A stretch of 64,000 nucleotides of DNA from Christensenella intestinihominis (GTDB lineage Bacteria > Bacillota > Clostridia > Christensenellales > Christensenellaceae). A program made the translations under genes and the position numbers. Shown in pieces: positions 1,050 through 20,204 of this stretch. The DNA lies in the NCBI RefSeq assembly GCF_001678845.1, contig NZ_MAIQ01000008.1, forward strand, positions 62,001-126,000, given 5' to 3'. Within the stretch, counting starts at the first letter, position 1. Each line of letters opens with the position of its first letter. The notes beneath the pieces are model-generated. The model made no database searches. It saw only the letters and a program-made list of their open reading frames with translations, and was not told the origin of the DNA.

Positions 1050-1080
1050 ATAATTTGTGTTTTCCGGCGTCCTTTTTTGG

Positions 1081-1108
1081 TTGAAAAAAATCCGATCTGT
1101 GTTACCAT
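1081..1108 (+). promoter_or_regulatory. Putative sigma-A promoter of the xylB-tkt operon
   Basis: TTGAAA at 1081-1086, a 16-bp spacer and TACCAT at 1103-1108 preceded by TGT (extended -10). The TGTGTTA context recurs in front of pilD (about 8596) and nth (about 35432). It would give a leader of roughly 200 nt before xylB. Confidence 0.5.
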
Positions 1109-1283
1109 AGAAGGGAAGCCGCTATCCCCAAATAAACGGCGTACCGGGACGGCAAAAGTACCCGCGGCATAAAAGCAATTAAGTTTTCCGCACGTCCGGA
1201 CCCCCGGGCGGCGGAACCTGTCATAAAGAGGCATCGGTAAAATTAAGTAACGGCCATGTGGAAAGCTATTTTGTCACCACAAA

Positions 1284-1299
1284 ATGTATACGTGTACAT
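1284..1299. promoter_or_regulatory. 16-bp near-palindromic operator upstream of xylB
   Basis: ATGTATACGTGTACAT is a palindrome with one mismatch per half, 24 bp before the xylB start. Its form is like operators of GntR-type sugar regulators (AraR-like). A role in pentose-dependent control is inferred; no regulator gene lies nearby. Confidence 0.4.
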
Positions 1300-1322
1300 G
1301 ACGGCCGGGAAAGAGGGAACCA

Positions 1323-2849: not shown

Positions 2850-2860
2850 AGGAGGAGAAT

Positions 2861-4620: not shown

Positions 4621-4647
4621 ACCGCGCCCACTATAGATAAGGAATAC

Positions 4648-4680
4648 AAAAAGGCCCGGCGTTCGCCGGGCCCTTATTTG
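4648..4680. terminator. Bidirectional terminator between tktB and pilA
   Basis: Stem GGCCCGGCG (4653-4661) / CGCCGGGCC (4664-4672) with a TT loop. An A-tract precedes it and a T-rich stretch follows, so it can serve the converging operons on both strands. Confidence 0.85.
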
Positions 4681-4713
4681 CAGATGTTCGTGAAGTTGTA
4701 GTTCCCGCTAAGG

Positions 4714-5139
4714 TTACTGCGGATAGGTTCCTGTCTTAGCGCCGTCAGTCCATGTGACGGTATCAACCGCAGCTGCTGCACCTGTACCTGTTAAGGTAAC
4801 AGAGATCGTTCCGTTCATGCCATCGCCCAAAAGGCCGACCAATATTCCTTGGAACGTAGTATTATCGGCCGTCGCTCCGGACAAATCCAAATTGGTGATC
4901 GGTGCTAAAGGGACTGTGGGGGTCCTTGACATGCAGACCGCCGCAGCCGCCGTAGCCGCCGAATAAACCGACCTTGCGTTGGCGTTTGCAACGGACGTAT
5001 TCGCCTCGTCGATGTAAGTCACCATGTTCGGGATGAGGATCGCCGCCAGAATCGCGAGGATCGCGATGACGATAATCAGCTCGATGAGCGTAAAGCCCTT
5101 TTTCTTCTTGTTGCGGTGGCGCTGAAATAATTGATACAT
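4714..5139 (-). CDS. pilA: Major type IV pilin-like prepilin
   Basis: 141-residue prepilin. Leader MYQLFQRHRNKKKKG is followed by FTLIELIIVIAILAILAA, with the prepilin-peptidase site G^F at residues 15-16 and the conserved Glu at +5. The helix continues through NMVTYIDEANTSVANA, then a short Ala/Gly/Thr-rich globular domain. It is the shortest pilin here and has its own strong promoter and leader, which suggests it is the major subunit of the pilus built by the surrounding genes. AAAGGAG precedes the ATG. It could instead be a type II secretion-like pseudopilin, but PilT at 5.7 kb favours a retractile pilus. Confidence 0.9.
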   Translation of the reverse strand: MYQLFQRHRNKKKKGFTLIELIIVIAILAILAAILIPNMVTYIDEANTSVANANARSVYSAATAAAAVCMSRTPTVPLAPITNLDLSGATADNTTFQGILVGLLGDGMNGTISVTLTGTGAAAAVDTVTWTDGAKTGTYPQ

Positions 5140-5239
5140 AACAATAACTCCTTTGATAAAATAAATGGACAGACCCGTAAGGCTGCCCCGATGGGCGGCT
5201 GGTGGTATGCCGTAAGGCAGTGCCGCGCATGCATTACAT
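5140..5239 (-). promoter_or_regulatory. Structured 5' leader of pilA
   Basis: About 100 nt lie between the predicted transcription start and pilA. On the minus strand it contains CCTTACGG twice (complement around 5171-5178 and 5210-5217), each in the apical part of a possible GC-rich hairpin. It does not match the c-di-GMP-I riboswitch core. Function unknown. Confidence 0.35.
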
Positions 5240-5245
5240 ACTCAT

Positions 5246-5274
5246 ATTTTACACGCAAAACAATACAAAGTCAA
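5246..5274 (-). promoter_or_regulatory. Strong sigma-A promoter of pilA
   Basis: On the minus strand: TTGACT (complement 5269-5274), a 17-bp spacer and TAAAAT (complement 5246-5251). This is near consensus and one of the best promoters in the window, as expected for a major pilin. Confidence 0.8.
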
Positions 5275-5313
5275 TCAGGTATCCATTAATTTTTCGCATA
5301 AAACCGGGAAAAA

Positions 5314-5724
5314 TCAGGTATCCGGCGGATACCTCGCGGGCAGGGTGACGAACTGGTCGATGAAATCCTTCCCGCCGTCCTTATCCCATTGCGCGAATTT
5401 TATTTCCCCCGTTTCGTCGAAGGCAATGGAGATTCTCCCGCCGTAGGGGAAACCCTCGCCAAGGCGGCCCGCGTCCGTGATATAGCGGAATTCCCCGTCG
5501 TCCCCGTCATAGGGGTCTCCCGCGCAGGTTGCGGCGTACAGCATCCCGTTATAATAAAGCTGTCTCGCATAGCTTGCGTACTGCGCCTTGCGGTATTCCA
5601 CCGAAAATACGAAGACAGCGGCAAAAATGACGGCAACCGCCACCCCGATGCCAACCAGCGTATAAAGGAACGCCCTTTTCGACGCGTCCCGCCCGACGGA
5701 ATCGTACTCAGATTTGGACGTAAC
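5314..5724 (-). CDS. Small membrane protein of the pilus operon, start codon unclear
   Basis: I do not recognise this family. It has a charged N-terminus (TSKSEYDSVGRDASKRA), one membrane segment (LVGIGVAVAVIFAAVFVF) and a C-terminal domain rich in Tyr, Gly and Asp, with the shape of a bitopic pilus-accessory or minor-pilin-like protein. The only canonical start, GTG 5643, would begin inside the membrane helix. The frame is open back to a stop at 5728-5730. A strong Shine-Dalgarno (AAAGAGGAG, in the 3' end of pilT) lies 7 nt before a GTT codon at 5724, which would give MTSKSEYD and 136 aa. The stretch to 5710 overlaps pilT. Confidence 0.55.
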   Translation of the reverse strand, partial: VTSKSEYDSVGRDASKRAFLYTLVGIGVAVAVIFAAVFVFSVEYRKAQYASYARQLYYNGMLYAATCAGDPYDGDDGEFRYITDAGRLGEGFPYGGRISIAFDETGEIKFAQWDKDGGKDFIDQFVTLPARYPPDT

Positions 5725-6763
5725 GCTTCAACTCCTCTTTGCTGGCCGCGCGGTCAAGGGCGGCTTCCATGGTAATTGTCCCTTCCTTCACCAGCCGCGC
5801 AAGGTACATATCGAGGCTGATCATGCCGCTGCGCATGTTCGTCTGCAAAACAGACGCAATCTGGAAGGTTTTACCCTCGCGGACGAGGTTCGCGACAGCA
5901 TCGTTCACCAGCATGATCTCAAATGCCGGGACGCGCCCCCTGCCGTCCACCCGGGGAATCAGCGTTTGCGTGATAACCGCACGCAGCACCGTTGCCAGCT
6001 GTGTCCGCACCTGTTGCTGCTGGTAGGGCGGGAATACGTCGATAATCCTGTCGATGGTCTTGGCCGCGCCGATGGTGTGCAGGGTAGACATCACCAGGTG
6101 CCCGGTTTCGGCGGCGGTAATGGCGGAGCTGATGGTCTCGAGGTCGCGCATCTCCCCCACGAGGATCACATCCGGGTCCTCGCGCAGCGCGCTGCGGAGC
6201 GCGGAAGAAAAATTTTCCGCGTCGCGGCCGATTTCGCGCTGGTTGACCATGCTCTTTTTGCTCGTGTGCATATACTCGACCGGGTCCTCGAGCGTCAGGA
6301 TATGACAGCTGCGTTTTTCGTTCACTGCATCGATCATCGCCGCGAGGGTGGTGGATTTACCGCTTCCGGTCGGGCCTGTCACCAGCACGAGCCCGCGGGG
6401 GTAATCCGCAATCTCCGCGAAAATCTCCGGCAGGTTCAGCTCGCCGATGGTGGGAATATCCTTTTGCAGCAGGCGGATGGCGATTCCAAGCTCGTCCCGC
6501 TGCCGGAAAATATTGACCCTTTGGCGTTCGCCGGACGGCGTCTGGTACGAAAAATCGATATCGCCTTCCTCCGGGCGGCCGTCGTTGCCGCTTTTTTGCA
6601 GCATTTCCCGCGCAATCCCGGCGATTACCGGGGCGGTAAACACGGGCCTGTCATTAAGGCGTTTCAGTTCCCCGTTCCTGCGTACAATCGGGGGCTCGCC
6701 GCAGGCGATGTGGACGTCCGAACAATCCATCGCGCGCGCTGCGCCAATCAATTCATCTATCAT
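5708..6763 (-). CDS. pilT: PilT, type IV pilus retraction ATPase
   Basis: 351 residues starting MIDELIGAARAMDCSDVHI, the normal PilT beginning; ATG 6763 follows AGAGAGGAATTACCT. Walker A is GPTGSGKSTTLAAM, Walker B region DPDVILVGEMRDLET, followed by His-containing GHLVMSTLHT. The cytoplasmic hexamer powers pilus depolymerisation, giving twitching or DNA uptake. It lies 13 nt after pilB in one operon. PilT separates this locus from secretion systems that only have an assembly ATPase. Confidence 0.95.
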   Translation of the reverse strand: MIDELIGAARAMDCSDVHIACGEPPIVRRNGELKRLNDRPVFTAPVIAGIAREMLQKSGNDGRPEEGDIDFSYQTPSGERQRVNIFRQRDELGIAIRLLQKDIPTIGELNLPEIFAEIADYPRGLVLVTGPTGSGKSTTLAAMIDAVNEKRSCHILTLEDPVEYMHTSKKSMVNQREIGRDAENFSSALRSALREDPDVILVGEMRDLETISSAITAAETGHLVMSTLHTIGAAKTIDRIIDVFPPYQQQQVRTQLATVLRAVITQTLIPRVDGRGRVPAFEIMLVNDAVANLVREGKTFQIASVLQTNMRSGMISLDMYLARLVKEGTITMEAALDRAASKEELKRYVQI

Positions 6764-6776
6764 AGGTAATTCCTCT

Positions 6777-8483
6777 CTATTCTTCCTCGGCGGTCGTAAT
6801 GCGGTACAGCTCAAAAATATCGATCTTTCCGTCGCGCAGCAGGTCAAGCGCGTTATCCATCAGGAATTTTTGCTTTTTGGCCTTCAGGTGGGAAAGGATA
6901 TCCTGCGTTTTTTTGTGGCCCACAACCATATCGCGGATTGCGTTGTCCGTTTTCACGATTTCATGCACCGCCGTCCGCCCGTAATGCCCGGTGTTGTTAC
7001 AGGCGTCACAGCCCGTTCCGTAATACAGGGTGGGGATATCCTCCATCCCGAGGGAGTGCAGGTAAGCCGCGTCCGCGGCGGTCGGCGTATAAACCGCCCT
7101 GCATTTGGGGCAGATCAGCTTCACGAGGCGCTGCGCAACCACGCCCACAACGGACGAGGCCACCACGTACGGTTCAAGCCCCATATCCACCAGCCGCATA
7201 AAGGTGGACGCGGCGTCGTTGGTGTGCAGGCTCGACAACACAAGATGCCCGGTGATGGCGGCGCGCGAAGCGATATCCGCGGTTTCGGCGTCGCGGATTT
7301 CACCGATCATAATGACGTCCGGGTCCTGCCGCAGAATGGCGCGCAGGCCGGATGCGAAGGTAAGGCCCGCCTTGGGGTTCACCTGTGTCTGGCTGACGCC
7401 GGGAATGACCTTTTCCACCGGGTCCTCTACGGAAACGACGTTGACAAGCGGCGTCGCGATTTCCGCCAGGATGGAATACAGCGTGGTGGATTTACCGCTT
7501 CCGGTCGGCCCGGTCACCACGACAATGCCGCTCGGGCTGCCGATCAGCTTGTAAAAAAGCTCGATGTTCTCCGGCGTCATCCCCAGCTGCTGGATTTTAT
7601 AAATGCCTGTCTTACTGTCCGTCAAAAGGCGCATGACGATTTTTTCCCCAAACACGGTGGGCATGGAGGATACGCGCACGCTGATTTCAGACCCCTCGAC
7701 CTGTGCGTCAAAGCGCCCGTCAAGGGGCAGCCTGCGTTCCGCGATATCCATGTCCGACATAATCTTGATGCGCGTCACAAGGGACGCGTGCGCGGAAGGG
7801 GAAAGTTCCGTGATGTCCACAAGGTCGCCGTCAATCCGGAAACGCACGCGGGTCACGCTTTCATAGGGTTCGATGTGGATATCGCTGGCGCGTTTCAAAT
7901 ACGCCTGCTCGACGAGCGTGCTCACGAAACGCACAATCGGGGCGCTGCCCACACGGCCCTCGATTTCGGAAAAATCCTCGCTGGACAGCTGCTCGAGGCT
8001 CTCCGAAACCTCGCGTTCCCGGCTGATATCCTCGGCGATTTCATCCACCTGGTGCAGCGCGTAAAAGCGTTCGATTGCGCTTTCGATCTCGTGCTTGGGC
8101 GCGAGGGAGGTCTCGATCCTGCGGCCCTTGACAAGGCCAAGCTGGTTGATGGCGTCGTAGTTGAGCGGGTCGGAGGTCGCGATTTCAAGGACGTTTCCCT
8201 GCAATTTCACCGGCAGCACGGAATATTCCCGCGCCAGGCTTTCCGGAACCTCGCGGATCACCTCGTTGGGAATGTTGATGTGCTGCAAATGGATGCGGGG
8301 GACGTTCAGGCGCTGCTGCAGCGCGTCCATCAACTGCTCCTCGCTGACGATTCCGAGGTCGATTAAAATATCCCCCAGCCGCTTCCCGCCGGACTGCTTC
8401 TGGATATCGAGCGCGCTTTCAAGCTGCTGTTCGTTGATAATGCCGCTGTCTACCAGCAGCTCGCCGATCCTGATGTTCTTCAT
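6777..8483 (-). CDS. pilB: PilB/GspE-type pilus assembly ATPase
   Basis: 568 residues. An N-terminal MshEN-like regulatory domain (residues 1-150, with repeated RIGELL/RLGDIL-LxQL units) is followed by the ATPase core. Walker A is GPTGSGKSTTLYSIL, the Asp box and Walker B DPDVIMIGEIRDAET, and the zinc site CPKC...CDAC near 450-480. It drives pilin polymerisation at the inner face of the membrane with PilC, PilM, PilN and PilO. MshEN domains bind c-di-GMP in some PilB proteins, so second-messenger control is possible. GGGAG lies 10 nt before the ATG. Confidence 0.95.
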   Translation of the reverse strand: MKNIRIGELLVDSGIINEQQLESALDIQKQSGGKRLGDILIDLGIVSEEQLMDALQQRLNVPRIHLQHINIPNEVIREVPESLAREYSVLPVKLQGNVLEIATSDPLNYDAINQLGLVKGRRIETSLAPKHEIESAIERFYALHQVDEIAEDISREREVSESLEQLSSEDFSEIEGRVGSAPIVRFVSTLVEQAYLKRASDIHIEPYESVTRVRFRIDGDLVDITELSPSAHASLVTRIKIMSDMDIAERRLPLDGRFDAQVEGSEISVRVSSMPTVFGEKIVMRLLTDSKTGIYKIQQLGMTPENIELFYKLIGSPSGIVVVTGPTGSGKSTTLYSILAEIATPLVNVVSVEDPVEKVIPGVSQTQVNPKAGLTFASGLRAILRQDPDVIMIGEIRDAETADIASRAAITGHLVLSSLHTNDAASTFMRLVDMGLEPYVVASSVVGVVAQRLVKLICPKCRAVYTPTAADAAYLHSLGMEDIPTLYYGTGCDACNNTGHYGRTAVHEIVKTDNAIRDMVVGHKKTQDILSHLKAKKQKFLMDNALDLLRDGKIDIFELYRITTAEEE

Positions 8484-8583
8484 TCGTTTTAAACTCCCAA
8501 ATTGTGGATTTTATTACGTTTTCCAGGCTGGCCGGGAAAGGAACCCCTTTCCGGGCGGCCCGGGCTTGATTCATTTACTGCAA

Positions 8584-8604
8584 AAATATCCAATCTGTGT
8601 TAAG
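8584..8604 (+). promoter_or_regulatory. Putative promoter of pilD
   Basis: An extended -10 TGTGTTAAGAT near 8595-8605 with a weak -35 (TGCAAA). It is the same TGTGTTA type seen before xylB and nth. The divergent pilB promoter should also lie in 8484-8669 but I cannot place it. Confidence 0.4.
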
Positions 8605-8669
8605 ATATGGAACAAGGTAAAGGGGCGGAGGCCGCTTTGCCGTACGCGTCCGCGAAAGGGAGGAACCGC

Positions 8670-9434
8670 ATGCAACTGATACTTGCCATATCTTATATTT
8701 TTTTATTCGTTTTGGGGCTCGTAGTCGGCAGCTTCCTGAATGTGTGCATCTACCGGATACCAAAGGGGATTTCCACCTGCTCCGGGCGGTCCATGTGCCC
8801 CGCCTGCGGCAGCATGATCCACGGCTACGATAATATCCCTCTGCTCAGTTACCTTATCCTGCGCGGAAGGTGCAGGAGCTGCGGCGCGCGTATTTCGCCG
8901 CGCTATCCGCTGGTAGAGCTTCTCACGGGGGGCTGCTTCCTGCTGTGCGGAATGACCTGGGGCCTTTCCGCGGAAACCGTTATTTTCTGTATTTTTTCCG
9001 CCGTGCTGGTCACGGTTGCCTTCATTGACCTGGATACGCAGGAAATCCCGGACCGGTTCCATTTTATTATCCTTGGCCTGGGGATTGCCGCGCTGTTCCT
9101 GGTTCCGCAAACAGGCTGGGTTTCCCGCCTTATCGGCGCGGCCTGCGTCAGCATCCCCATGCTCGTGATTGCGCTTGCCACGGATGGCTTCGGCCTTGGG
9201 GACGTAAAGCTGATGGCGGTCAGCGGCTTCCTGCTCGGGTGGAAAAACATCGTTTTCGCCGCGCTTCTGGGGGCGGTTCTGGCCGCGGCCTGTGCGCTTA
9301 CCCTGATCGCAATGAAGAAAAAAACCAAAAAGGATAAAATTGCCTTCGGTCCATACCTTGCTATCGCCCTGTTTGTCGCCGCGCTGTTCGGGGACGCCAT
9401 CATCGGGGCATACCTGTCGCTGTTTTCGCTGTAA
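8670..9434 (+). CDS. pilD: PilD/GspO prepilin peptidase (and N-methyltransferase)
   Basis: 254-residue polytopic membrane aspartyl protease (family A24). The N-terminal cytoplasmic domain has the two CxxC pairs (CPACGS and CRSCGA) of the bifunctional peptidase/methylase form. The catalytic Asp motifs are IDLDTQEIPD and GLGDVKLM. It cleaves the leader of PilA and of the minor pilins at 13-20 kb after Gly (or Ala). ATG 8670 with AAAGGGAGG was chosen over an upstream in-frame ATG at 8607 because GSFLNVCIYRIP then lies at the normal distance from the N-terminus. Confidence 0.95.
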   Translation: MQLILAISYIFLFVLGLVVGSFLNVCIYRIPKGISTCSGRSMCPACGSMIHGYDNIPLLSYLILRGRCRSCGARISPRYPLVELLTGGCFLLCGMTWGLSAETVIFCIFSAVLVTVAFIDLDTQEIPDRFHFIILGLGIAALFLVPQTGWVSRLIGAACVSIPMLVIALATDGFGLGDVKLMAVSGFLLGWKNIVFAALLGAVLAAACALTLIAMKKKTKKDKIAFGPYLAIALFVAALFGDAIIGAYLSLFSL

Positions 9435-9442
9435 CGGCCGCG

Positions 9443-10099
9443 TCAGGCCGCGCCCGCCGCATCCAGCGCCTCCTGCTGCGCCTGCTCCGCCGCCGCATCC
9501 AGTGCCGCATCTCCCGGCTGCGCCGCCGCATACAGCTCAAGCTGTATTGAAGTTGCGGACGGCTGGTCCGGGTTTGCAAGGTCGATATAAAATTCCGTCA
9601 CCACCGTATAGGGAAGCTCGTAAAGCTGTTCGAGGACGTTCATCGTCTGGTCAAAATTCCCAGCGACCGTAAACTGCAGCGCCGCATGCGATAAAAATGC
9701 GGTCTGCGCTTGCTCCCCGTCCTGCCCGTCCTCCGCCGCTCCCGCGGTTTCGACGGCCTCGTATTCCCCGATGCTCAGCGAATCCAGCGTGACGCCCGCC
9801 CTGTTGCAGATGTCGCTCACCATATAATGGATATCGTAATTTTTCATGACCGGGGGAATTAACGCCCCGTTTTCCTCATATTGCTGCTTTAGTTCGGCAA
9901 GCGCCGATTCAAGCGTCGGTTTTACCGAAAGCTGCGTTTCCATTTCAAACCGGGACGCCTCGAGCTCCGCAAGCGAACGCTCCTTTTCTGCGTTGTCCTG
10001 CATAACCGGGTAAATCAGCAATACAAAAGGAACGACGGCAATCACAATTACCAGCAGGACAACCAATAAAATCTTTTCGCGTTTTTGCAATTTTTTCAT
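9443..10099 (-). CDS. pilO: PilO-like inner-membrane pilus alignment protein
   Basis: About 218 residues: a short basic N-terminus, one membrane helix (ILLVVLLVIVIAVVPFVLLIY), a coiled coil (residues 35-75, ERSLAELEASRFEMETQL) and a ferredoxin-like C-terminal domain with an Ala-rich tail. This is the PilO plan. PilO pairs with PilN to link the cytoplasmic PilM-PilB platform to the wall. The ATG overlaps the stop of the previous gene (ATGA) and an AAGGAGG precedes it. Sequence identity to proteobacterial PilO is not obvious; position and topology carry the call. Confidence 0.75.
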   Translation of the reverse strand: MKKLQKREKILLVVLLVIVIAVVPFVLLIYPVMQDNAEKERSLAELEASRFEMETQLSVKPTLESALAELKQQYEENGALIPPVMKNYDIHYMVSDICNRAGVTLDSLSIGEYEAVETAGAAEDGQDGEQAQTAFLSHAALQFTVAGNFDQTMNVLEQLYELPYTVVTEFYIDLANPDQPSATSIQLELYAAAQPGDAALDAAAEQAQQEALDAAGAA

Positions 10100-10671
10100 T
10101 CTGCCGCGCCTCCTTCCGGAAGGACGCATGTGACGGAGAACACATAGCCTTCTTCGGGCGTTCCGTGGAAGCCCGGATATCCAACCGACCGGAAATAACC
10201 CGACTGGTCAAGCGCCTGAACAAAATCTGCCGGGGGCAGGTTGTCCGAGGTTTTACATTCGATGGTAAGGGTCGTGCCCGAAAGCGCAAGGCCGGTAAAA
10301 GTCACGCGGTCGGGCTTCACGGATAAAATATGATCGTACACGTCGCTGTTATACTGCGCGAATGCAACCAGCGCCGTGCGCGCGGCCTCCGCCGCTTCGT
10401 TATACCGGGTATACCCGGTGATCTGCGCCTGCAGTCCGTTTGTTTCCTGTATTTCCGCGGCATAATCGGCGATGTACCGGTCGGCGTCCCCGATTTTCCG
10501 GTCAAGGGAGGCGCCGCGCGCCGCCGTAAGGAAATACCCGCCGCCGACGCATACCGCAAGCACAATGAACACAAGGACCAGCACAAAACCGGAACTTACG
10601 GCTTTTGCGGCGGTCGGCGCGGCCTTCATATTTTGGAACATATTCACGGTTGTTTTCATATTTTTTTTCAT
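10096..10671 (-). CDS. pilN: PilN-like inner-membrane pilus protein
   Basis: 191 residues with a cytoplasmic N-terminal segment of about 25 residues, one membrane helix (GFVLVLVFIVLAVCVGGGYF), a short coiled-coil stretch and a small alpha/beta domain. PilN uses its N-terminus to bind PilM. Gene order M-N-O with ATGA overlaps on both sides supports the call. The N-terminal segment lacks a clear copy of the PilM-binding INLLP motif, so orthology rests mainly on context. Confidence 0.72.
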   Translation of the reverse strand: MKKNMKTTVNMFQNMKAAPTAAKAVSSGFVLVLVFIVLAVCVGGGYFLTAARGASLDRKIGDADRYIADYAAEIQETNGLQAQITGYTRYNEAAEAARTALVAFAQYNSDVYDHILSVKPDRVTFTGLALSGTTLTIECKTSDNLPPADFVQALDQSGYFRSVGYPGFHGTPEEGYVFSVTCVLPEGGAAE

Positions 10672-11582
10672 TTTTCGAGCAGCGCCCCCGTCGCATAAGC
10701 ATATTGGTGGAACAAAAATCCGTTCGGTGCGGATACGGAGGACGGGCAGGGCAGCAGGGAAACCGGGTGCCCCAATGCGGCGGAAATGTTCCCCGCCATT
10801 TCGGCGGTGGCAATATCGCCGGAAATAAAAATGGAATCGCAGGCCCGGCCCGGATATTTAATGGATTGGTACTGCATCATTTTGGAAATGTTCTGCGTGG
10901 CGGCCTCCGTTGCGGCGGAAATGTCGTAACGGTTTTCGACGACGGCGGCAAGCGCCTGCCTGCCCGGCATAACCGCGTCCGAACGCGTAAGGGCAATGTT
11001 GGGCTGCGCAAGCAGGGTAACGTGGATGCGCGAACTTCCCACGTTCGCGATAATGATATCGCCCCCGGAAAATCCGTTTCCCAAATGCTGCAGTCGGCAC
11101 AGGCAATTCTGCACTACCGTATAACAGGACGGTTTTTTCCCGGCAAGGGAAAGGATTTCCGAAACGGATTCCACGAGGGAACGCTTCGCAAGGTAGGCCT
11201 GTACGCGGCAGAATGTGCTGCCGTCCCGGGGAAATACCTCCTGGATGGTATAATCGAGGATGGAATCATCCGAGGTCTGCGATTTATAAAGCTCGCCCTG
11301 CACAATGTTGCGCATGGCTATCGGATTTTTTTCGTAGGGCAGCACAAATTCATTGGAAATGACGTTGCTTTTGGATACCAGCACGTTTACCCTTCCGCCG
11401 GAAAAACCGGAAGCAAGAAGGCCGCGCACGGCCCCCGCCATAGCATTTTTGTCGGTTACGCCGTCCGCGTCCATATATTCCGGCAGGGGAGCGCTGGCAG
11501 CGTGGGTTATGGTAATTTCCCCGCCGGACGCCTTCCCGTTTACGGCGCGGATATAAAGGTTTGTAAAGTCTAAAGCAATCAA
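10668..11582 (-). CDS. pilM: PilM-like actin-fold pilus assembly protein
   Basis: About 304 residues starting (TTG)IALDFTNLYIRAVNG, an actin/FtsA-type phosphate-1 loop; later motifs include IIIANVGSSRIHVTLL and SIFISGDIATAEMAG. PilM is the cytoplasmic ring that connects PilB to PilN and PilO. TTG 11582 lies 5 nt after GAGAGGTGA; the GTG inside that Shine-Dalgarno (11591) is the alternative start. The stop overlaps pilN (ATGA). About 95 nt separate it from pilC, with no clear terminator. Confidence 0.8.
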   Translation of the reverse strand: MIALDFTNLYIRAVNGKASGGEITITHAASAPLPEYMDADGVTDKNAMAGAVRGLLASGFSGGRVNVLVSKSNVISNEFVLPYEKNPIAMRNIVQGELYKSQTSDDSILDYTIQEVFPRDGSTFCRVQAYLAKRSLVESVSEILSLAGKKPSCYTVVQNCLCRLQHLGNGFSGGDIIIANVGSSRIHVTLLAQPNIALTRSDAVMPGRQALAAVVENRYDISAATEAATQNISKMMQYQSIKYPGRACDSIFISGDIATAEMAGNISAALGHPVSLLPCPSSVSAPNGFLFHQYAYATGALLEK

Positions 11583-11677
11583 TCGGTTCACCTCTCTTGC
11601 GGAGCGCCGTACCGGGAAGCGCATTGCTTCCTTCCGGGCGGTTCCATAATACGCCGGGCAGGGGAATAAGCCCCCGC

Positions 11678-12874
11678 TTACAGCATGCTCGAATACATCG
11701 AATAAATCGGCAGCATTACGGCTGCCAGCACGATTGTTATAATAACGGCCAGCACAACCAGCATCACCGGTTCCAAGATAGAAATCATCCGGTTGATGGC
11801 GTTTTCGGATTCCGTGTTGTAGTAATCCGAGATACTGGCAAGGATACGGTCAAGGCTGCCCGACTCCTCGCCGATGCGCACCATGGACGGAAGCAGGCGG
11901 TCGAACACGTTTATGCGTTCGATGGCCGAGGAAAGGGATTCCCCCATGCTCACATCCTGCATCAGCGAAGTAAACAGCCTGTCGATGTAGAGGTTGCCGA
12001 GGACGTTCGACGACAGCCGCAGCGACGTAATCAGCGGAATACCGCTTGCATACAGGATCGACAGGGAACGCGCAAAACGCGCGGAATATACGGTGCGGTT
12101 CATTTTGCCCGTCACAGGCATGCGCAGCTTTATCCGGTCGAGTATATAGCGAAAAGAAGGCATGCGCGCGGAATTCAGGAATAAAACGGCGACCGCGGCG
12201 ATCACCAGCACAATCCATATCCAGTAATTCACCATAAAATCGCTCACGCCCATGACGAACTGGGTAATCGGCGGGATTTCCGCATTCTGGAACATGGTCA
12301 TCATGTTCGGCAGCACAAATGTAAATAACAGGATAATGACGCCCACGGAGACGACAAGTAAAATTGTCGGGTAAATGGTGGCCGATTTAATCTTGTGCAT
12401 CAGCTTGTTTTCGTTTTCATAGTGTCCCGCAAGCGTCAGCAGGATGGAATCGAGGCTGCCGCTCGTCTCGCCGGATTCGATCATGTTGGTAAGGAAGGGC
12501 GGAAAAGACTGGCCCTCGAGCCGCATTGCCTGCGAGAGGGACATGCCCCGCTGGATGCTTTCATAGACGGAAAGGAATAATTCACGGATTGCGGGCGTTT
12601 CCGCCGTCTGGTACAGCACCTCGAACGCCCCCGTCATGCTCAGGCCGGATTCCATCATCGTTCCCATTTTCCGGCAGAAAACGATAAGCTCCCTGGTTTT
12701 CATTTTATGCAGCCGGCGGCGCGCCTGTCCGCCGTCCGCGGTTTCGTCATAGGAAAGGCAATAAAGCCCCTGCCCGCGCAGGGACGCATAAAAAGACGGT
12801 ATATCGTTTGCCGTAAGAACGCCTTTCACCGTTTTGCCCTGGGCGTCGCGGGCGGTATATCGAAATTGACTCAA
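11678..12874 (-). CDS. pilC: PilC/GspF-type pilus platform protein
   Basis: About 398 residues with two T2SSF domains (roughly 65-190 and 265-390), each with membrane helices (TILLVVSVGVIILLFTFVLP and VMLVVLAVIITIVLAAVMLP). Hallmarks are GMSLSQAM and the SGETSGSLD / GEESGSLDRIL repeat pair. It is the integral membrane platform for pilin extrusion. TTG 12874 (MSQFRYTARDAQGKTVKG) gives the standard family start and length. An open extension upstream contains a spurious hydrophobic stretch and is not used. Confidence 0.93.
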   Translation of the reverse strand: MSQFRYTARDAQGKTVKGVLTANDIPSFYASLRGQGLYCLSYDETADGGQARRRLHKMKTRELIVFCRKMGTMMESGLSMTGAFEVLYQTAETPAIRELFLSVYESIQRGMSLSQAMRLEGQSFPPFLTNMIESGETSGSLDSILLTLAGHYENENKLMHKIKSATIYPTILLVVSVGVIILLFTFVLPNMMTMFQNAEIPPITQFVMGVSDFMVNYWIWIVLVIAAVAVLFLNSARMPSFRYILDRIKLRMPVTGKMNRTVYSARFARSLSILYASGIPLITSLRLSSNVLGNLYIDRLFTSLMQDVSMGESLSSAIERINVFDRLLPSMVRIGEESGSLDRILASISDYYNTESENAINRMISILEPVMLVVLAVIITIVLAAVMLPIYSMYSSML

Positions 12875-12965
12875 TCTGGAAGTACGACCTTTCCTGGAAT
12901 AATACCGTACGAATTCGGTTAGGTTTATCGCTAAAAAAAATACGCACGGATAATAATATAATTTT

Positions 12966-12993
12966 ATCATAACATAAATCCCAAATTCCGCAA
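12966..12993 (-). promoter_or_regulatory. Putative promoter of pilC-pilM-pilN-pilO
   Basis: Minus strand: TTGCGG (complement 12988-12993), a 16-bp spacer and TATGAT (complement 12966-12971). Confidence 0.5.
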
Positions 12994-13030
12994 CAAAACT
13001 TAACATGAAAATTTCAAAAAAGTGGGTGAT

Positions 13031-13052: not shown

Positions 13053-13181
13053 GGAGTAGTCGGGGAATGTATTAAAAAATATAGGCGTTCCATAGTATAA
13101 ACCGGGGAATGGCTTTGCAGAGGCAAACAGGTAAAATGCCCGCGCATGAAAGCCCCGGGTTGCCCGCGGAGGGGCCTGTTC

Positions 13182-16100
13182 GTGGTTAGATACAAAAGGA
13201 AAAACAAGCTGGCTTTCACGCTGGTGGAGCTCGTCGTCACCATTGCGATTATTGGCATACTGGCGGGGATTTTCGTCCCGTCTATCCTTAGCTATGCCAA
13301 AATGGCGCGGATGGAAGGCCTCAATAACGACGCCAGGACGGTTTTCCTGGCCGCGCAGAATTACCTGACGGGCTGGACGGGCGGCGGGAACGACGCGGCG
13401 GCAATTAATCCGCAGGGCGAAACGGTCGATCTGGACAGGATAGTGCCCGGGGTCCCGGCAAAGGAAAAAACGGAAAACGGCGAAAACATCAAATACCTCA
13501 CGCTCGCGCGTACGGACGGGAGCAAGCAGGAAAACCCGCTTTATCAAATCCTTTCCGGCTATATTTCAGACCAGCTCCTGCTGGAAAAATCGATTCTGGT
13601 GGAATATAACCAGAAGACGGGCCGGGTGCGCTCCGCGTTTGTTTCGGAGGAGCCGTTCCTCGGCTATGCCGGGGAAAACAGCGACCCGACGAACGTATAC
13701 GACCGTACGACAGATGTGCTGTGGGCAAAGGAGCAGGGTTATTACGGCGTGGATTATACGGGCAGCCTTCCGGACAGGCAGGAAGGCCAGAGCCTTTCCG
13801 TCCGCATCGTAAACAGCGATAATATGCTGCGCGTGGAATGCGATATCGCAGATTTTATAACCGCGAAAAACGGGACGCAATATGAATTCCAAATTTTTTC
13901 CCTGGATGATCCGGGAAAAGGATATACGTTTACATTTGATCCGAATCTTACCTATGACCGGGACGCAGGCGGAAAAACGGTATGGGCGGTAACCTATAAC
14001 AATGCAAAAACCGCAATAGAAAAGGCGGACCCCAAAAAGCCGATGGTTTATAAAACGGAGGTGGACCCGGACGGCACCGGGCATATCGTGCTGATCCTGG
14101 ATGTATTCAGCGCGTGGAACGCCTACGACTCCGCCCGGGATATGGGAATTGCGGCCTGCTATCCCGATCTTCCGGTCGGATTGCTGGACGCGAAGGTCAC
14201 GGCAAAGGCGGCGGATACGGGGGCGGAAATTGCCGCGGAACGGTCGGGAAATACGGAATACAGCTATTTCGCCGGACAGGAAAAGGGGAAGGACGGAAGC
14301 GTTACCTATATCATCCGGGATGCGCGCCAGCTTAATAATATGCGCTACATGACGGAAGGAACCGCCATCACGGGAAAATTCCGGCAGGCTGCGGATATCA
14401 GCATGCGGGCGTTTTTCGATGAAACGGGCGATAAGGTCCTGGCCGAGGGCGCGCGGGTCACGATCGCACCGCTGGGGTCCTTCGCCGGGACGTACGATGC
14501 GCAAAAGCCTTATGCGGGCACGGATGGGGACGGGAATTATACCGTTACGGACCTCATGGTTGCCTCCCGCAGCGGACAGGCGGGGCTCTTTGCCGTAAAC
14601 AGCGGAAAAATTACCAATCTTACGGTTATGGGAGCGCAGGTCGGGGAGGCAGGCGAACCCGTAAAGACGAACGGCGGAATCATTGCCGGGGCCAACGCGC
14701 CTCTTGGGACAATCGAAAACTGCAATGTTTCAGGGGCCGTGACGGGCGGCGCTTCGGCTGGCGGGATCGCAGGCGCAAACAGCGGGAAAATCATCGGCTG
14801 CAAGAGCGGCGTGTTCCCGGGGCTGCAAACCGCAAACGCCGTGCAATATACCTATAAAAACACCTATTCCTATACGGAAAAAGTGCTGAAAGACGGAAAA
14901 CCGGTTACGGTGAAAAAAGAGCTGCCCTGTGTCATTTCCTCCGGCGGCAGCGGGGAACGGAATGCCGCCGTGGGCGGTATTGCGGGCACGAACACCGGGA
15001 CGATTACGCAATGCGTCAATATTTCGCAAATTGAGAACCAGTCCGCGGGCGGAAAAACGGGCGGCCTTGCGGGCCTTGTTTCCGCGGGCGGACTGACCGA
15101 AAGCTATAACGCGGGCCGCGTTGTTTCCACGGGAAACGGAAGCAGCGTGGGCGGGGTCGTCGGGCAAAACGGCGCGCATGTTGAAGCCTGCTATAATACG
15201 GGCAGGATCAACCTGAAGGATTCACAGGAAAATAATCCCGGGGAATCGACGCCGCTTACGGACGGCAGCATCGGGGGCGTGGCAGGCTATAATACGGAAA
15301 GCGGGAGCATTGCGGATTGTTATGCAATCAACTATATCGGATATTCCGAGTGGCAGGCGAATACGGCGGCGGGCGGCGTCATCGGCCGCGACGAGACGAC
15401 GGACCCCGCTTTCGTTACCAATTGCAGCTTTATTCCCGGGGAAAACCTGACGAATGCGCTCGGCGAATCCGTCCTTGGCGCGCGCGGCGGAGCGCGTGCC
15501 GTATACCGGCCGGAAGAGCTCGCGGACTATTATACGGGCGACCCGTGGCGCCTCGACGATCCGGCCTCCGGGGGAACCTTCTACTACAGGTATCCCTATT
15601 TATACGGCCTGAAAAGCGAACAAATTACGCCGTGGGAACAGATCACCCCGGCGACCCCCACGCTCCTTGCGCGCATGGAAAACGGCGAACTGCTGACGGC
15701 GGAATGGGTAAACGAGACCTCTTCGCTGCAAAAGGGAATTATTGTGGAATTCCTGGACGGGAGCGGCAATGTGCTCGATACGGTCCGGAATATCGACCTG
15801 GAGGCACTGCGCGGCATAACGTCCCTTCGCGACGCCCTGCTGGCGCCGCTTTCAGGGGATTCCGGCAGGACATATTTTGCCTTCTGCGAAGACAATACCT
15901 ATAAGATTGTGCTGGACGGCGTTTTGATGGATGAAAACCGGCGCAATACAATTGAAAATTACTTCCGCGATAAGCAAAGCATTGGTATACGCGTAACCTA
16001 TCTGGGGGAAGAAACGGTCCTTTCCAACATGGAAAATCCGCTGTATGCGGGCGTGACGGACGAAGGGAACCAAATATCGAACGCGCGTCATTTCTATAAT

Positions 16101-18827
16101 GTGCGCTACCGCGCCGGACAGGCTTTTGTGCAGGCGGGGAATATCGAGCTGCATAATTTTGACGGGACCGAAGCGGTAATTTCTCCCGTAGACGTACTCA
16201 CGGGCAGCTATGACGGAAAAGGCTATTCCATCACCCGGCTGTCGGTTGTCTCCGAATCGGGCGGCGCGGGCCTGTTCGCGCAAATCGGGGAGGCGAGCAC
16301 GGCAAAAAATATCGTCCTCGAATCGGGAACCGTTACGGGCCGCGAAAACATCGGCGGGATCGCCGGTATCAATTACGGGACGGTAAGCGGCTGCACAGTA
16401 AGGCAGGGAGTAACCGTTTCGGCCGCAGCGGGCGGCGGGAAGAAAAACATCGGCGGCCTTGTCGGGAAAAACGCGGGCGTTGTGACCGGGCCGGACCGGC
16501 ATCCCACGGCGGACGGGGATAATTACCTGCACACTACGGGCGCGCAGTGGTACGCGGGCGGCGCCGCGAATACGGGAACGATCACCTTCAAAACCAGCGT
16601 ACCGCCGCCGGAGAGCGAAGGGAGCAGGTTTTACGTGGCGTTTGATACGCTCGACGCGACCGCGCTGGGCATACCTGACGGCAGGCAGGACGAGGAAATA
16701 CTCGCGCTTCTGGAACTGGAATCGGGTTACCCTTTCCAGTTGTGCAAAAACGATATGTATACGCCCCTCACCCTGGCGGATTTACAGGGGATGCAAAAGG
16801 CCAAGGAAGGCTATTATCTGGAATTTTACCTGCAGTCCGACGATTTGGCGGTGCTCCGGCGCGTCACGGATACGCCGTGCTTTGTCGGAAATTCCGGCGA
16901 AATCACAGACTGCGTGAACGAAGCGTCGCTTACGCAGGCGGCGGATACGGCAAATGCGGAAGACCGCATCGGCGGCATCGCGGGGTCAAATGAAAGTGTC
17001 ATCCGCCGGTGCACAAGCGGGACGGTTGCGGACCCGCCCTCCATGGACATCGGGGAAATCCTTTCAAACGCGACGCAATACCGCGCGCAAAGCGGTTTCA
17101 TTGGCGGTGTCAGCGGGGTCAATTCCGGGGAAATCACGGACTGCGTGAACGCGGCCGGGGTCTCGTCGGCGGCAGGAAAGGCCGTCGGCGGCATCGCCGG
17201 ACAAAATACAAACCTCATCGGCAACTGCTATAACGCGGGTACGGTATGGTGCGCGGGCACAGGCGGCAGCGTCGGCGGCATTGCGGGGAAAAATATTAAA
17301 GAAATTACCAATTGCTATAACACGGGCCGCATCAATGTGGAACCCGGCCAACTGGCGGGCGTGAAGCTTTCCGGCGGCAGCATCGGCGGCGTAGCCGGCT
17401 TCAACGGCGCCGCCGCGCAGGTGTCCGCCTGCTATAATATCGGCTATGTGGGCGACGCGGCCGGAACCGGCTCCGCGGGCGGCGTGGTCGGCCGCAACGA
17501 AAATATGGCGGCGGGCTCTTCGGGAATTTGGAATATATATACGCTGGCGACAAACAGCCTCGGCAAGGATGCCGTCGGCAGCGGCGTTCCTTCCGGGTTC
17601 CCCAATACCCCGGTTTCCGCGGATGAACTGAAAGGCCTGCTTTTGGGAACGGCGTTCTCCACGGACCAGGCCCCGCTTGCGCAGACCTATCAATATCCCT
17701 ATCCGTATTTGAAAGGCGGCGCGGCGCAGCAGCGCACCCCGTGGGAGGACGCGGCGGAAGCAGGTGCCCTCAAAGGCTCGGGTGCCTCCGGCGATCCCTA
17801 CCAAATCTGGAACGCGAAAGACCTGCTTTTGGTGGAACAATACAGCGAGGCGCCCGACAAATATTTCCGGCAAATGGACGATATCGATATGACGGGTGTG
17901 GATTACAGCCCCATCGCCTCGTTTACAGGCCATTACGACGGCGCGGGCCATACCATCTCAAACCTGGAGGTGCGGATCGTCGACGCCGTGCTGACGGAGG
18001 GGCAGATGCATTATACGGGCGGTTTGGTACAGAGCTCGAACGGAAACCTCCGGAATATCTGCCTCGTGAACCCGCAGGTCGCCATTTCCTATACCGGGCC
18101 GAAATACGCATGGCCGCACCAGCTGTATGTCGGCGGCATTGTCGGGAGGTCCTCCGGCCGGGTGGAAGATTGCATGGTGATCGGCGGCAGCGTTACCGTA
18201 ACCGTGGAAGCGGAATCGTGGAATACGGACGCCTATATCGGCGGTATCGTCGGATATGGCGGCGCTTCCTTCTGCGGCTGCACGGCGGATATTACGCTTG
18301 ACAACAAGAGCGGCAGCCGCGAGGCTTCCTACCTGGGCGGCGTCGCCGGGTACAGCTATGGAAGCGGCGTAAACCAGTCCTATTTTGCGGGAACGCTTTC
18401 GGGCGCGGGCGTCTCCGCCAAAATCGGCGCGATTGCGGGATATAATATAAGCTACGTCACTTCCTGCGTAATGCTGGGCGGCAGCGCCCCGCAGGCGGTG
18501 GGCTTCGGCTCCGGCTCGGCCGTATCCTGCACGTCCGGCGAATTATCGTCCAATGACATTCTCGGAAAATTGGGCGGCGGCGCATGGCATTTCATCCCGG
18601 CGTGCGGCTATCCCTATCCGCTGTCGGTCGATATCACGACGCCCCTGCCCGGGATTTCCGTCAATATGTTCACGGAGGAAGAACCATCCCCCGAACCGGA
18701 GGCGCAGGAAGCGGCTCCCGGCCCGGAAGAAAGCCCGGAAATCTCCCAGCCTGCCCCGGAAAGCGCCGGGCCGTCCGCGTCCCCGCAGACAGCGGAGCCG
18801 GACCAGGAGGGCGGTGACGCGGCATGA
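13182..18827 (+). CDS. Giant prepilin-like protein with GLUG-type repeats (putative pilus-tip adhesin)
   Basis: 1881 residues. A basic leader (VRYKRKNKLA) is followed by FTLVELVVTIAIIGILAGIF, a class III prepilin helix with Glu at +5 but Ala, not Gly, before the cut site. Residues about 60-450 are a non-repeat region. Roughly 460-800, 970-1500 and 1530-1810 hold at least fifteen GLUG-type units (pattern GGIAGxNxGxIxxCxNxG). Each of the three blocks ends in a YPY(P/L) element, the first two followed by TPWE, indicating internal duplication. The tail (about 1826-1881) is Pro/Glu/Ala-rich. GTG 13182 follows GGAGGGG by 7 nt. It heads an operon of small minor pilins, so a tip-located adhesin of the pilus is inferred. 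Confidence 0.85.
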   Translation: MVRYKRKNKLAFTLVELVVTIAIIGILAGIFVPSILSYAKMARMEGLNNDARTVFLAAQNYLTGWTGGGNDAAAINPQGETVDLDRIVPGVPAKEKTENGENIKYLTLARTDGSKQENPLYQILSGYISDQLLLEKSILVEYNQKTGRVRSAFVSEEPFLGYAGENSDPTNVYDRTTDVLWAKEQGYYGVDYTGSLPDRQEGQSLSVRIVNSDNMLRVECDIADFITAKNGTQYEFQIFSLDDPGKGYTFTFDPNLTYDRDAGGKTVWAVTYNNAKTAIEKADPKKPMVYKTEVDPDGTGHIVLILDVFSAWNAYDSARDMGIAACYPDLPVGLLDAKVTAKAADTGAEIAAERSGNTEYSYFAGQEKGKDGSVTYIIRDARQLNNMRYMTEGTAITGKFRQAADISMRAFFDETGDKVLAEGARVTIAPLGSFAGTYDAQKPYAGTDGDGNYTVTDLMVASRSGQAGLFAVNSGKITNLTVMGAQVGEAGEPVKTNGGIIAGANAPLGTIENCNVSGAVTGGASAGGIAGANSGKIIGCKSGVFPGLQTANAVQYTYKNTYSYTEKVLKDGKPVTVKKELPCVISSGGSGERNAAVGGIAGTNTGTITQCVNISQIENQSAGGKTGGLAGLVSAGGLTESYNAGRVVSTGNGSSVGGVVGQNGAHVEACYNTGRINLKDSQENNPGESTPLTDGSIGGVAGYNTESGSIADCYAINYIGYSEWQANTAAGGVIGRDETTDPAFVTNCSFIPGENLTNALGESVLGARGGARAVYRPEELADYYTGDPWRLDDPASGGTFYYRYPYLYGLKSEQITPWEQITPATPTLLARMENGELLTAEWVNETSSLQKGIIVEFLDGSGNVLDTVRNIDLEALRGITSLRDALLAPLSGDSGRTYFAFCEDNTYKIVLDGVLMDENRRNTIENYFRDKQSIGIRVTYLGEETVLSNMENPLYAGVTDEGNQISNARHFYNVRYRAGQAFVQAGNIELHNFDGTEAVISPVDVLTGSYDGKGYSITRLSVVSESGGAGLFAQIGEASTAKNIVLESGTVTGRENIGGIAGINYGTVSGCTVRQGVTVSAAAGGGKKNIGGLVGKNAGVVTGPDRHPTADGDNYLHTTGAQWYAGGAANTGTITFKTSVPPPESEGSRFYVAFDTLDATALGIPDGRQDEEILALLELESGYPFQLCKNDMYTPLTLADLQGMQKAKEGYYLEFYLQSDDLAVLRRVTDTPCFVGNSGEITDCVNEASLTQAADTANAEDRIGGIAGSNESVIRRCTSGTVADPPSMDIGEILSNATQYRAQSGFIGGVSGVNSGEITDCVNAAGVSSAAGKAVGGIAGQNTNLIGNCYNAGTVWCAGTGGSVGGIAGKNIKEITNCYNTGRINVEPGQLAGVKLSGGSIGGVAGFNGAAAQVSACYNIGYVGDAAGTGSAGGVVGRNENMAAGSSGIWNIYTLATNSLGKDAVGSGVPSGFPNTPVSADELKGLLLGTAFSTDQAPLAQTYQYPYPYLKGGAAQQRTPWEDAAEAGALKGSGASGDPYQIWNAKDLLLVEQYSEAPDKYFRQMDDIDMTGVDYSPIASFTGHYDGAGHTISNLEVRIVDAVLTEGQMHYTGGLVQSSNGNLRNICLVNPQVAISYTGPKYAWPHQLYVGGIVGRSSGRVEDCMVIGGSVTVTVEAESWNTDAYIGGIVGYGGASFCGCTADITLDNKSGSREASYLGGVAGYSYGSGVNQSYFAGTLSGAGVSAKIGAIAGYNISYVTSCVMLGGSAPQAVGFGSGSAVSCTSGELSSNDILGKLGGGAWHFIPACGYPYPLSVDITTPLPGISVNMFTEEEPSPEPEAQEAAPGPEESPEISQPAPESAGPSASPQTAEPDQEGGDAA

Positions 18828-19372
18828 GCAAGCGGCATAAAGCCAAAGAAGGGGCGTCCATGGTCATCGCGTTGATTTTGCTGATTGTGTTCCTCGTGAT
18901 CGGGACGTCCGTGCTCACGGCGGCGTCGGCCTCGGTAAGCAGCGCGGCGGCGCTCCGGGAGGAAAAGCAGCTTTACTATTTCGCGCGTTCGGTTGCCGTT
19001 TCCTTTACGGACGGCATGACCAAACAATGGGGAGGGGCGCTGTGGGACAACATAAATAAAATCATCGAAAACGAGCCGGACAGGGAAGAATACACCTGCA
19101 CCCTTTCCGTCAATAACAGCCTGCCGGACGGTTTTATGAAGGAAGGGAACCGGGAGCTTAATATGGACCCGGTTACGATACGGCTGGAAGGAGTCCGCCT
19201 GAACGAAGACGGTTCGCTGCGCGCGGTCGGGAAGATGACCGCGGAATTCGTGGTGCGTTACGGCGGCGGCGCCCGGGCCTATCGGATGATGGCGGAATAC
19301 ACATATCAGAAGCCGGAGGATGACGAACATGCGGAATCGGGTTGGACGCTTGTCAAATATGACCAGCCGTAA
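18824..19372 (+). CDS. PilX-like minor pilus protein
   Basis: 182 residues. After KRHKAKEG comes ASMVIALILLIVFLVIGTSV, a single N-terminal helix without the +5 Glu, as in PilX/GspK-type minor pilins, which often initiate the pilus tip. Its start overlaps the stop of the giant prepilin gene (ATGA), so the two are probably made together. The remaining domain is soluble and unassigned. The 3' end overlaps the next gene by 44 nt. Confidence 0.65.
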   Translation: MSKRHKAKEGASMVIALILLIVFLVIGTSVLTAASASVSSAAALREEKQLYYFARSVAVSFTDGMTKQWGGALWDNINKIIENEPDREEYTCTLSVNNSLPDGFMKEGNRELNMDPVTIRLEGVRLNEDGSLRAVGKMTAEFVVRYGGGARAYRMMAEYTYQKPEDDEHAESGWTLVKYDQP

Positions 19373-19682
19373 AACGGGCAAAAAAGGAAAAAAAGGGGAG
19401 CTGCTGATCGAAACGATTGTTTCGATCGCCATTTTCGCCGTCGTAATGGTTGCGGTGTCGTCGATGGTGGCCGTCGCCTACAATATGCTCACCGCGTCGC
19501 GGGAGCAGTACGAGCAAATCCGCCAAAGATGCTCGAACATTGAAACCATGCAGGATGTGGGCGGCTATACCGGCGGGAATGTGCTGCAATACCAGTTTGA
19601 CGATGCGGGGAATACGCGGGTCGATACGGCGATACGGGTTTACGAAGACGGGCAGGTCGCCTTTTTCACCCTGGGGAAGTAA
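19329..19682 (+). CDS. PilV-like minor prepilin
   Basis: About 117 residues. The leader ends KKGKKG^ELLIETIVSIAIFAVVMVAVSS, keeping Gly at -1 and Glu at +5. A coiled region (REQYEQIRQRCSNIETMQ) and a small C-terminal domain follow. ATG 19329 lies 9 nt after GGAGG; the ATG at 19320 directly abuts that Shine-Dalgarno and is less likely. The overlap with the preceding gene implies translational coupling within the minor-pilin operon. Confidence 0.7.
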   Translation: MRNRVGRLSNMTSRKTGKKGKKGELLIETIVSIAIFAVVMVAVSSMVAVAYNMLTASREQYEQIRQRCSNIETMQDVGGYTGGNVLQYQFDDAGNTRVDTAIRVYEDGQVAFFTLGK

Positions 19683-20204
19683 ATGAAGAACGGGAAATTT
19701 TCGCAAAAACTGAAAAAAGGCTTTACGCTGGTTGAACTGGTGGTCGCGATTGCCGTGTTTGCGATTTTCTCCGTGGGCGCGGCCGTCGTACTGGTGCCGG
19801 TGCTTAACATTTACAACAGCGCGATCCAACTGTCGGACGCGCAGTTTGTGGCGTCGAACGTCCTCGATGCCGTAGAAAACGAACTCACCTACGCGCAGCC
19901 GGACCAGGCGCCGGTTATTTCGGGGGACGGAACGGAAATCAGGTTCAATGGAATCTACCCGGATACAAGGCTCAAATCTACCGGGGGATATTTGTATATT
20001 GCCCGCGGCGCGGGAGGGGAATTCCAGCCGTATTACGACGAACGCTATTACCGCAGCGGCAGGGTTGAGGTAACGTTTGCAGGGCCAGAGGAAGGCGCGC
20101 GCGCCTATACGGTCACCGTAGAGGTGAAAAAAGACAGCGGAGAAGCGCTGTATACGGCGACCGGGAACATCACGCCGCTTGCGTATGCGGGGAGCGGCGT
20201 TTGA
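19683..20204 (+). CDS. PilW/PulJ-like minor prepilin
   Basis: 173 residues. Leader MKNGKFSQKLKKG is cut before FTLVELVVAIAVFAIFSVGAA, a standard class III signal with +5 Glu. The C-terminal part looks like a beta-rich pilin head (YLYIARGAGGEFQPYYDE). The ATG directly follows the stop of the PilV-like gene. It is the last gene of the operon; the next 110 nt hold the glnS promoter. Confidence 0.75.
   Translation: MKNGKFSQKLKKGFTLVELVVAIAVFAIFSVGAAVVLVPVLNIYNSAIQLSDAQFVASNVLDAVENELTYAQPDQAPVISGDGTEIRFNGIYPDTRLKSTGGYLYIARGAGGEFQPYYDERYYRSGRVEVTFAGPEEGARAYTVTVEVKKDSGEALYTATGNITPLAYAGSGV

Follow-up and report, generated by a model that had tools for sequence, protein, structure and literature searches.

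The window (the whole stretch of 64,000 nucleotides of DNA that was analysed) contains a gene for a prepilin of 1881 residues, about ten times as large as pilins usually are, in which about 1600 residues of duplicated GLUG-repeat sequence stand behind a pilin module. We read the product, referred to below as the giant, as a modular minor pilin that displays its repeat arm at or near the pilus tip and binds something outside the cell, and give this reading a probability of roughly two in three. We infer its processing, its tip location and its adhesion, and would call it a putative adhesin in that sense. An arm that can exceed 1500 residues, in a recurring cassette and sometimes with several copies per machine, would offer a testable answer to how gut Clostridia might grip fibre, mucus or other cells through pili. 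Judged by its sequence, the giant is the published "modular pilin" design at extreme size, as that design is set out in the available text of Raynaud 2021 (PMC8179133).

Sequence and domain organization of the giant

The open frame (13182–18827, +; 1881 codons) starts with a GTG at 13182, 7 bases 5' of which lies the sequence GGAGGGG; an alternative in-frame ATG upstream of it, at 13146, would add 12 residues. The protein begins VVRYKRKNKLA/FTLVELVVTIAIIGILAG, the slash marking the predicted cleavage site, and its prepilin motif has Glu at +5 together with a pilin-like helix. A domain search bore out the original prediction of a class III prepilin start fused to repeat-rich sequence, with N_methyl (PF07963) at 25.3 bits against a cut-off of 21.2 and Glug (PF07581) at 55 bits against 20.5 in Pfam, and TIGR02532 at 19.5 bits against 16.3 in NCBIfam. 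The mature protein is computed to be acidic (pI 4.55) and of about 195 kDa. The accompanying statement that prepilins are usually shorter than 300 residues also holds, since of 126 N_methyl matches, which come from 24 genomes of the order out of 101, 97 fall within frames no longer than 300 codons and 6 within frames of at least 1000 codons (hand count). The source genome comprises 3.03 million bases and is 99.94% complete. The parts of the gene are as follows, with the evidence for each in brackets.

13182..18827, +: giant modular prepilin, 1881 residues (open frame, Pfam, upstream GGAGGGG, full-length relative)
13182..13214, +: prepilin leader, residues 1–11, ending in Ala before FTLVE at the predicted cleavage site (PF07963)
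13215..13772, +: pilin module, residues 12–197, ending just after GYYGVDYTG (corresponds to the whole 214-residue relative at L032; head model A3)
13773..14276, +: spacer 1, residues 198–365, border set by eye (aligned with relatives)
14277..15647, +: GLUG block 1, residues 366–822, ending YPY...TPWE, borders set by eye (BLASTP, motif count, genome Glug scan)
15648..16061, +: spacer 2, residues 823–960, borders set by eye (alignment with the full-length relative)
16062..17747, +: GLUG block 2, residues 961–1522, ending YPY...TPWE, with the best Pfam Glug stretch at 1361–1385 (Pfam, BLASTP)
17748..18626, +: GLUG block 3, residues 1523–1815, weakly related to blocks 1 and 2 (BLASTP)
18627..18824, +: acidic, proline-rich tail, residues 1816–1881, without sorting motif (sequence)

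A motif check of the C-terminus found no LPxTG-like sorting signal, and a sortase-anchored adhesin was rejected for lack of such a motif. A plasmid search with the whole protein as query gave no match.

The pilin module and its closest relatives

In order to place the giant among its relatives, the whole protein was searched against 61 genomes including its own, 22 of which gave some match at E 0.001. Matches below 1e-30 were confined to the giant's own genome (G000) and two others, G009 and G012, and the remaining matches were to GLUG-like repeats or pilin helices. G009 (Christensenella sp. UBA5399, locus L048), which belongs to another genus than the source of the window giant, encodes a relative of 2070 residues that is 38% identical end to end; its gene is the first of the same operon, before PilX-, PilV- and PilW-like genes and divergent from PilC. 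In this relative the Pfam Glug match reaches 16.9 bits, below the cut-off of 20.5, and GGxxG-type motifs number 17.

G012 (OttesenSCG-928-K19, loci L032/L049) encodes, at the same operon position, an intact protein of 214 residues that ends soon after GFYGVDYTG and whose stop overlaps the PilX start. Because this protein is equivalent to the pilin part of the giant alone, we let the pilin module end at about residue 197 and regard the arm as grafted on; by this comparison of sequences, the stretch from residue 12 to about residue 197 forms a self-contained pilin unit. Other short stand-alone pilins that match the head have 189 and 216 residues. A PDB sequence search with the giant matched solved pilins in the N-terminal helix region, one of them (3sok) to about residue 110.

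A tree of 32 heads puts the short form of G012 as sister to the window head (97/88), with the long G009 form outside. Of two further short forms, that of L094 is nested within a different group of long proteins (98/91), and that of L093 splits off close to the base of one half of the tree. Three changes of the label "short" are needed on this tree, and the starred branches force three. The simplest reading of the sequences is that the arm was lost in G012, the genome of which is 72% complete. G012 has the pilin genes but no arm, so a pilus does not require it, a point against our reading; the occurrence of the same pilin with and without an arm provides an evolutionary test.

The repeat arm

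Beyond residue 200, GGxxG-type motifs occur 17 times in the giant; 300 shuffles that preserved its composition averaged 0.4 and never exceeded 3. All three GLUG blocks were delimited by eye. The internal duplication with similar block ends that had been predicted is clearest between blocks 1 and 2, which share the ending YPY...TPWE and align by BLASTP with E 6e-32 and 36% identity over 228 residues, an E-value that is inflated by the shared repeats. Block 3 shows a weaker relationship to the other two (E 1e-4 and 5e-5); its end reads YPYP, and TPWE is missing. In the genome scan, all three blocks scored above the Glug cut-off. When the arm was searched against PDB sequences, nothing convincing emerged, the single chain at E 0.47 being taken as a chance match. 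We predict that the arm is probably an elongated beta-helix.

IPR011493 is an entry that we take to be that of GLUG. In the available text of Raynaud 2021, IPR011493 is called an M26 peptidase and the word GLUG does not occur (PMC8179133). The label given there to the combination IPR012902-IPR011493 is what would favour an M26-type peptidase mounted on a pilin (PMC8179133), but the giant has no HExxH and its Pfam matches include no M26 domain; on both counts we rejected this candidate, which we regard as extremely improbable.

The same genome encodes a GLUG protein of 1557 residues with an ordinary-looking signal peptide and no pilin head (L035, 5927–10600; G000:C27), so the GLUG module is not specific to pilus biology. 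A further large GLUG frame of 2262 codons lies at about 5400–10000 on G000:C29. Two genomes of the same genus encode GLUG-like proteins of some 2000 residues, again with signal peptides of ordinary appearance, at L033 (480–6467; G002) and L034 (1662–7670; G003), and a search of G002 and G003 with the A3 head model matched no full head of the giant-pilin family.

The pilus cluster and the minor-pilin cassette

The giant gene is the first of a four-pilin operon (13182–20204, +) and is divergent from the PilC end of a pilus cluster. The other genes of cluster and operon are as follows.

4714..5139, −: likely major pilin PilA, 141 residues (profile matches and sequence)
5708..6847, −: PilT retraction ATPase (TIGR01420 above cut-off)
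6777..8483, −: PilB-like extension ATPase with MshEN domain (Pfam/NCBIfam, NF053729)
8607..9434, +: PilD prepilin peptidase (PF06750 and PF01478)
9443..10129, −: PilO/GspM-like (matches below cut-offs)
10096..10671, −: PilN-like (PF05137 above cut-off)
10668..11624, −: PilM-like (matches below cut-offs)
11678..13006, −: PilC-like platform protein (T2SSF), divergent neighbour of the giant gene (Pfam)
18824..19372, +: PilX/GspK-like minor pilin without Glu at +5, overlapping the giant gene by 4 bases (PF14341)
19320..19682, +: PilV/GspI/ComGE-like minor prepilin, a later ATG near 19359 being possible (NCBIfam matches below curated cut-offs)
19683..20204, +: PilW/GspJ-like minor prepilin (Pfam N_methyl; NCBIfam gspJ below cut-off)

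The predicted order, with the giant heading an operon of PilX-, PilV- and PilW-like genes, stands, and the first of these carries PilX_N (PF14341) at 25.6 bits, just over the cut-off of 25.5, with a GspK match below its cut-off; the names PilV and PilW are held less firmly, their matches falling below the curated cut-offs. The MshEN domain has a known role with c-di-GMP, and since the PilB-like ATPase (6777–8483) carries this domain, extension of the pilus may answer to c-di-GMP. According to the available text of one source, K subunits lack Glu at +5, as does the PilX-like pilin here (PMC9934059).

The leader peptide and processing

The original prediction was correct that Ala replaces Gly before FTLVE. 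The slowed processing that it drew from this need not be assumed: the available text of a review (2023) states that the prepilin leader invariably ends in Gly or Ala (PMC10191384), and Ala is also found at −1 in the PilW-like pilin of L048 (G009). In 32 distinct heads, counted after L099 had been dropped as a copy of L061, position −1 is Gly in 31 and Ala in one, that of the window; the full-length relative in G009 has Gly. Ala at −1 is rare among heads of the family but allowed, and slow processing owing to it is possible.

This rarity would also suit a reading in which the prepilin-like helix is an ordinary signal anchor and the giant a surface protein that is anchored in the membrane and never becomes part of a filament, but Gly or Ala is an accepted leader end, again by the available text of the review (PMC10191384). 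The genome and genus do encode large GLUG-like proteins that lack a pilin head and start with what look like ordinary signal peptides (L035, L033, L034); against this, the head model of the giant is common to short stand-alone pilins. Although a protein of near 1900 residues would be hard to fit within the filament body, PilD and the pilus machine are encoded in the same cluster and the minor-pilin cassette is conserved, and we consider an ordinary signal anchor improbable.

Proposed position in the filament

For the modular minor pilin that we favour, we propose that Sec would insert the giant prepilin and that the PilD of the same cluster would cut it after Ala-11. Together with the PilX/GspK-like, PilV/GspI-like and PilW/GspJ-like pilins, the giant would then form the filament-starting complex, in which it may take the place of the H subunit (GspH/FimU), an assignment proposed from cassette position alone. 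Because assembly runs from tip to base, the arm would end up at or close to the tip. There the acidic arm would bind a surface, polymer or partner cell, PilT retraction could pull on its bond, and c-di-GMP would control the PilB-like ATPase through MshEN.

The H subunit is generally taken to link tip complex and shaft, and this point, like the acidic, proline-rich tail without a sorting motif, could speak for a modular pilin whose arm lies near the cell or along the shaft as a spacer, cell-wall binder or retraction regulator, not as a tip adhesin. A K-like pilin that has no Glu at +5, as in this cassette, would nevertheless suit a tip complex. The available text of Raynaud 2021 leaves a shaft position open if the linker is flexible (PMC8179133), but the arms vary strongly between relatives, as expected if they face varied ligands, and we find a shaft or near-cell arm unlikely.

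Tip display of the giant, argued by analogy, fits the published tip models, which in their available text locate the HIJK complex, like modular pilins, at the tip and ascribe binding to the grafted module (PMC8179133, PMC9934059). The claim that no pilin of this architecture had been described was too strong: modular pilins are established, with more than 1,200 of them in 264 architectures that include IPR012902-IPR011493, in the available text of Raynaud 2021 (PMC8179133). That architecture resembles the giant in its prepilin motif and, on our assumption about IPR011493, in its GLUG repeats; it differs in being named there as a possible M26 peptidase, with no analysis of family, operon or size in the available text (PMC8179133).

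As far as the available texts go, PilB (vWA) and PilC (lectin) of Streptococcus sanguinis share with the giant a class III signal, a small pilin module, a large C-terminal module that is not peculiar to pili and the status of minor pilin (PMC8179133, PMC9934059). Processed PilB has 50.5 kDa, so that the giant, at about 195 kDa, is about four times as large; unlike PilB and PilC, it has GLUG repeats in place of a known binding domain and belongs to a cassette with K-, I- and J-like pilins. ComZ of Thermus thermophilus is likewise a pilin with a large repeat domain, a beta-solenoid, for which the tip is argued to be the only place with room; but ComZ binds DNA, and its solenoid of about 380 residues interrupts the pilin fold, whereas the giant's arm, by sequence, follows a complete pilin module (available text of PMC6561018). 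PilY1/PilC of diderm pili offers a further likeness as a very large tip effector held by HIJK minor pilins (available text of PMC9934059 and PMC10191384); PilY1 is not a pilin, whereas the arm of the giant is covalently part of one. PilY1 is reported absent in monoderms in the available text of PMC9934059; a search for PilY1 in the window's genome gave no match, and its controls gave none either. Among the papers listed by a literature search, with most subscription papers and preprints outside its scope, there was no description of the giant-pilin family, its sizes, its cassette or the pattern of several cassettes.

The wider family of heads

Heads were sought with a model (A3) of 14 rows and 194 positions, and a match was counted only if it covered at least 150 positions, a rule that excludes some long frames in which the head is only partly covered (such as those in G466 and G477); many weak A3 matches are other pilins aligned in the helix and were left out of the counts. 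The order sample gave 29 matches in 17 of 396 genomes (hand count), with 23 frames longer than 1000 codons (the longest 5153), four of 538–838 and two short ones (216 and 219). The class sample gave matches in 9 of 393 genomes (hand count; the window's genome is in both samples), with seven frames longer than 1000 codons (the longest 3752), one of 676 and one of 192. Because A3 was seeded by an earlier model made from two long proteins and one short, these size shares are not an unbiased census. The proposed search for the same fusion in other Clostridia thus found this pilin head, mostly in frames of about 1100 to 5150 codons, in further families of the order as well as in records from Lachnospiraceae and Eubacterium, and on these sequence matches the window giant is one member of a family, not a single oddity.

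Of 43 heads, 36 have a PilX/GspK-like neighbour, which in 31 cases follows immediately downstream and in five lies upstream; these figures include near-copies (L050/L051, L052/L053) and one head, L098, for which the coverage rule was relaxed, and seven of the PilX genes had served to build the search model. Three of the seven heads without such a neighbour lie at the end of the available sequence, and a fourth, L102, has a PilX-like gene about 1.2 kb downstream; in the scan of the 43 heads no PilX-like neighbour was found for L087, L089 and L094. The genes of the cassette mostly lie 3' of the giant gene, and 5' of it in L056, L099, L101 and L110.

Arm length and content vary strongly between relatives. 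GGxxG motifs exceed all 300 shuffles in 28 of 29 proteins, the exception being the 502-residue protein of L054, which has none. Pfam Glug is above its cut-off in four of 17 long proteins (the window giant and those of L052, L055 and L092), weak in four (the G009 giant, L059, L050 and L084) and absent in nine. Profile comparison of the window type with the Lachnospiraceae/Eubacterium type aligned the head and block 1 over 706 columns (E 4.7e-27); with the group of 1127–1275 residues the head alone was aligned and the arms were not joined.

Several relatives have features of their own. Giant prepilins of more than 3500 residues at L050 and L051 (Lachnospiraceae) run past the end of the available sequence, and those of L087 and L089 have List_Bact (Flg_new) repeats near their C-termini, another surface-protein repeat on a pilin. 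The protein of L092 (G331:C5, frame 3271–8970, −) has near its C-terminus, at residues 1648–1783, a Hint-like (intein-like self-processing) stretch that scores 23.2 bits with PF01079, below the cut-off of 29.7, and that could cut or attach the end of the arm. A prepilin at G046:C7:25454-25528 lies in a frame of 2629 codons that the A3 head model does not match, and giant prepilins may for this reason have arisen more than once. G107 contains six prepilins of near-equal size (571–588 codons) on contigs C169, C196, C21, C40, C155 and C239.

Several heads for one detected pilus machine

Two to four heads are present in eight of the 17 A3-positive genomes of the order sample. Five of these eight yielded a single PilC, recognised by a pair of T2SSF domains within the same frame, and a single ATPase each of PilB and PilT size; the five are G084 with four heads, G331 and G384 with three each, and G376 and G169 with two each. 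They are drafts, 93–96% complete, so a second machine may have been missed. As to the other three, G253 has one PilB-sized and one PilT-sized ATPase and no PilC was found in it, and G173 and G070 each have two PilC, two PilB-sized ATPases and one PilT-sized ATPase. The genome of the window has one A3 head, with a second PilC-like gene and a third ATPase match on contig C12. All four giant genes of G084 adjoin a PilX-like gene and two prepilin genes, one of them across a gap of 1.2 kb; one of the three heads of G384 is a lone short one.

That two to four heads occur alongside a single detected PilB, PilT and PilC suggests, at the level of gene content, exchangeable pilus tips in these five relatives. 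We tentatively extend this, at somewhat less than even odds, to an old "tip cassette" family of Clostridia, in which the pilin of the H slot would usually have a long arm (about 500 to 5150 residues) and its own K-, I- and J-like partners, with two to four heads per single machine in some members. If this were true, one machine could mount alternative giant tips and so change what the cell grips. At L059 (G253:C36:1-14000), a pair of complete giant-pilin cassettes is arranged back to back in divergent orientation at 790–11494; each includes a PilX-like gene of its own and two other prepilin genes.
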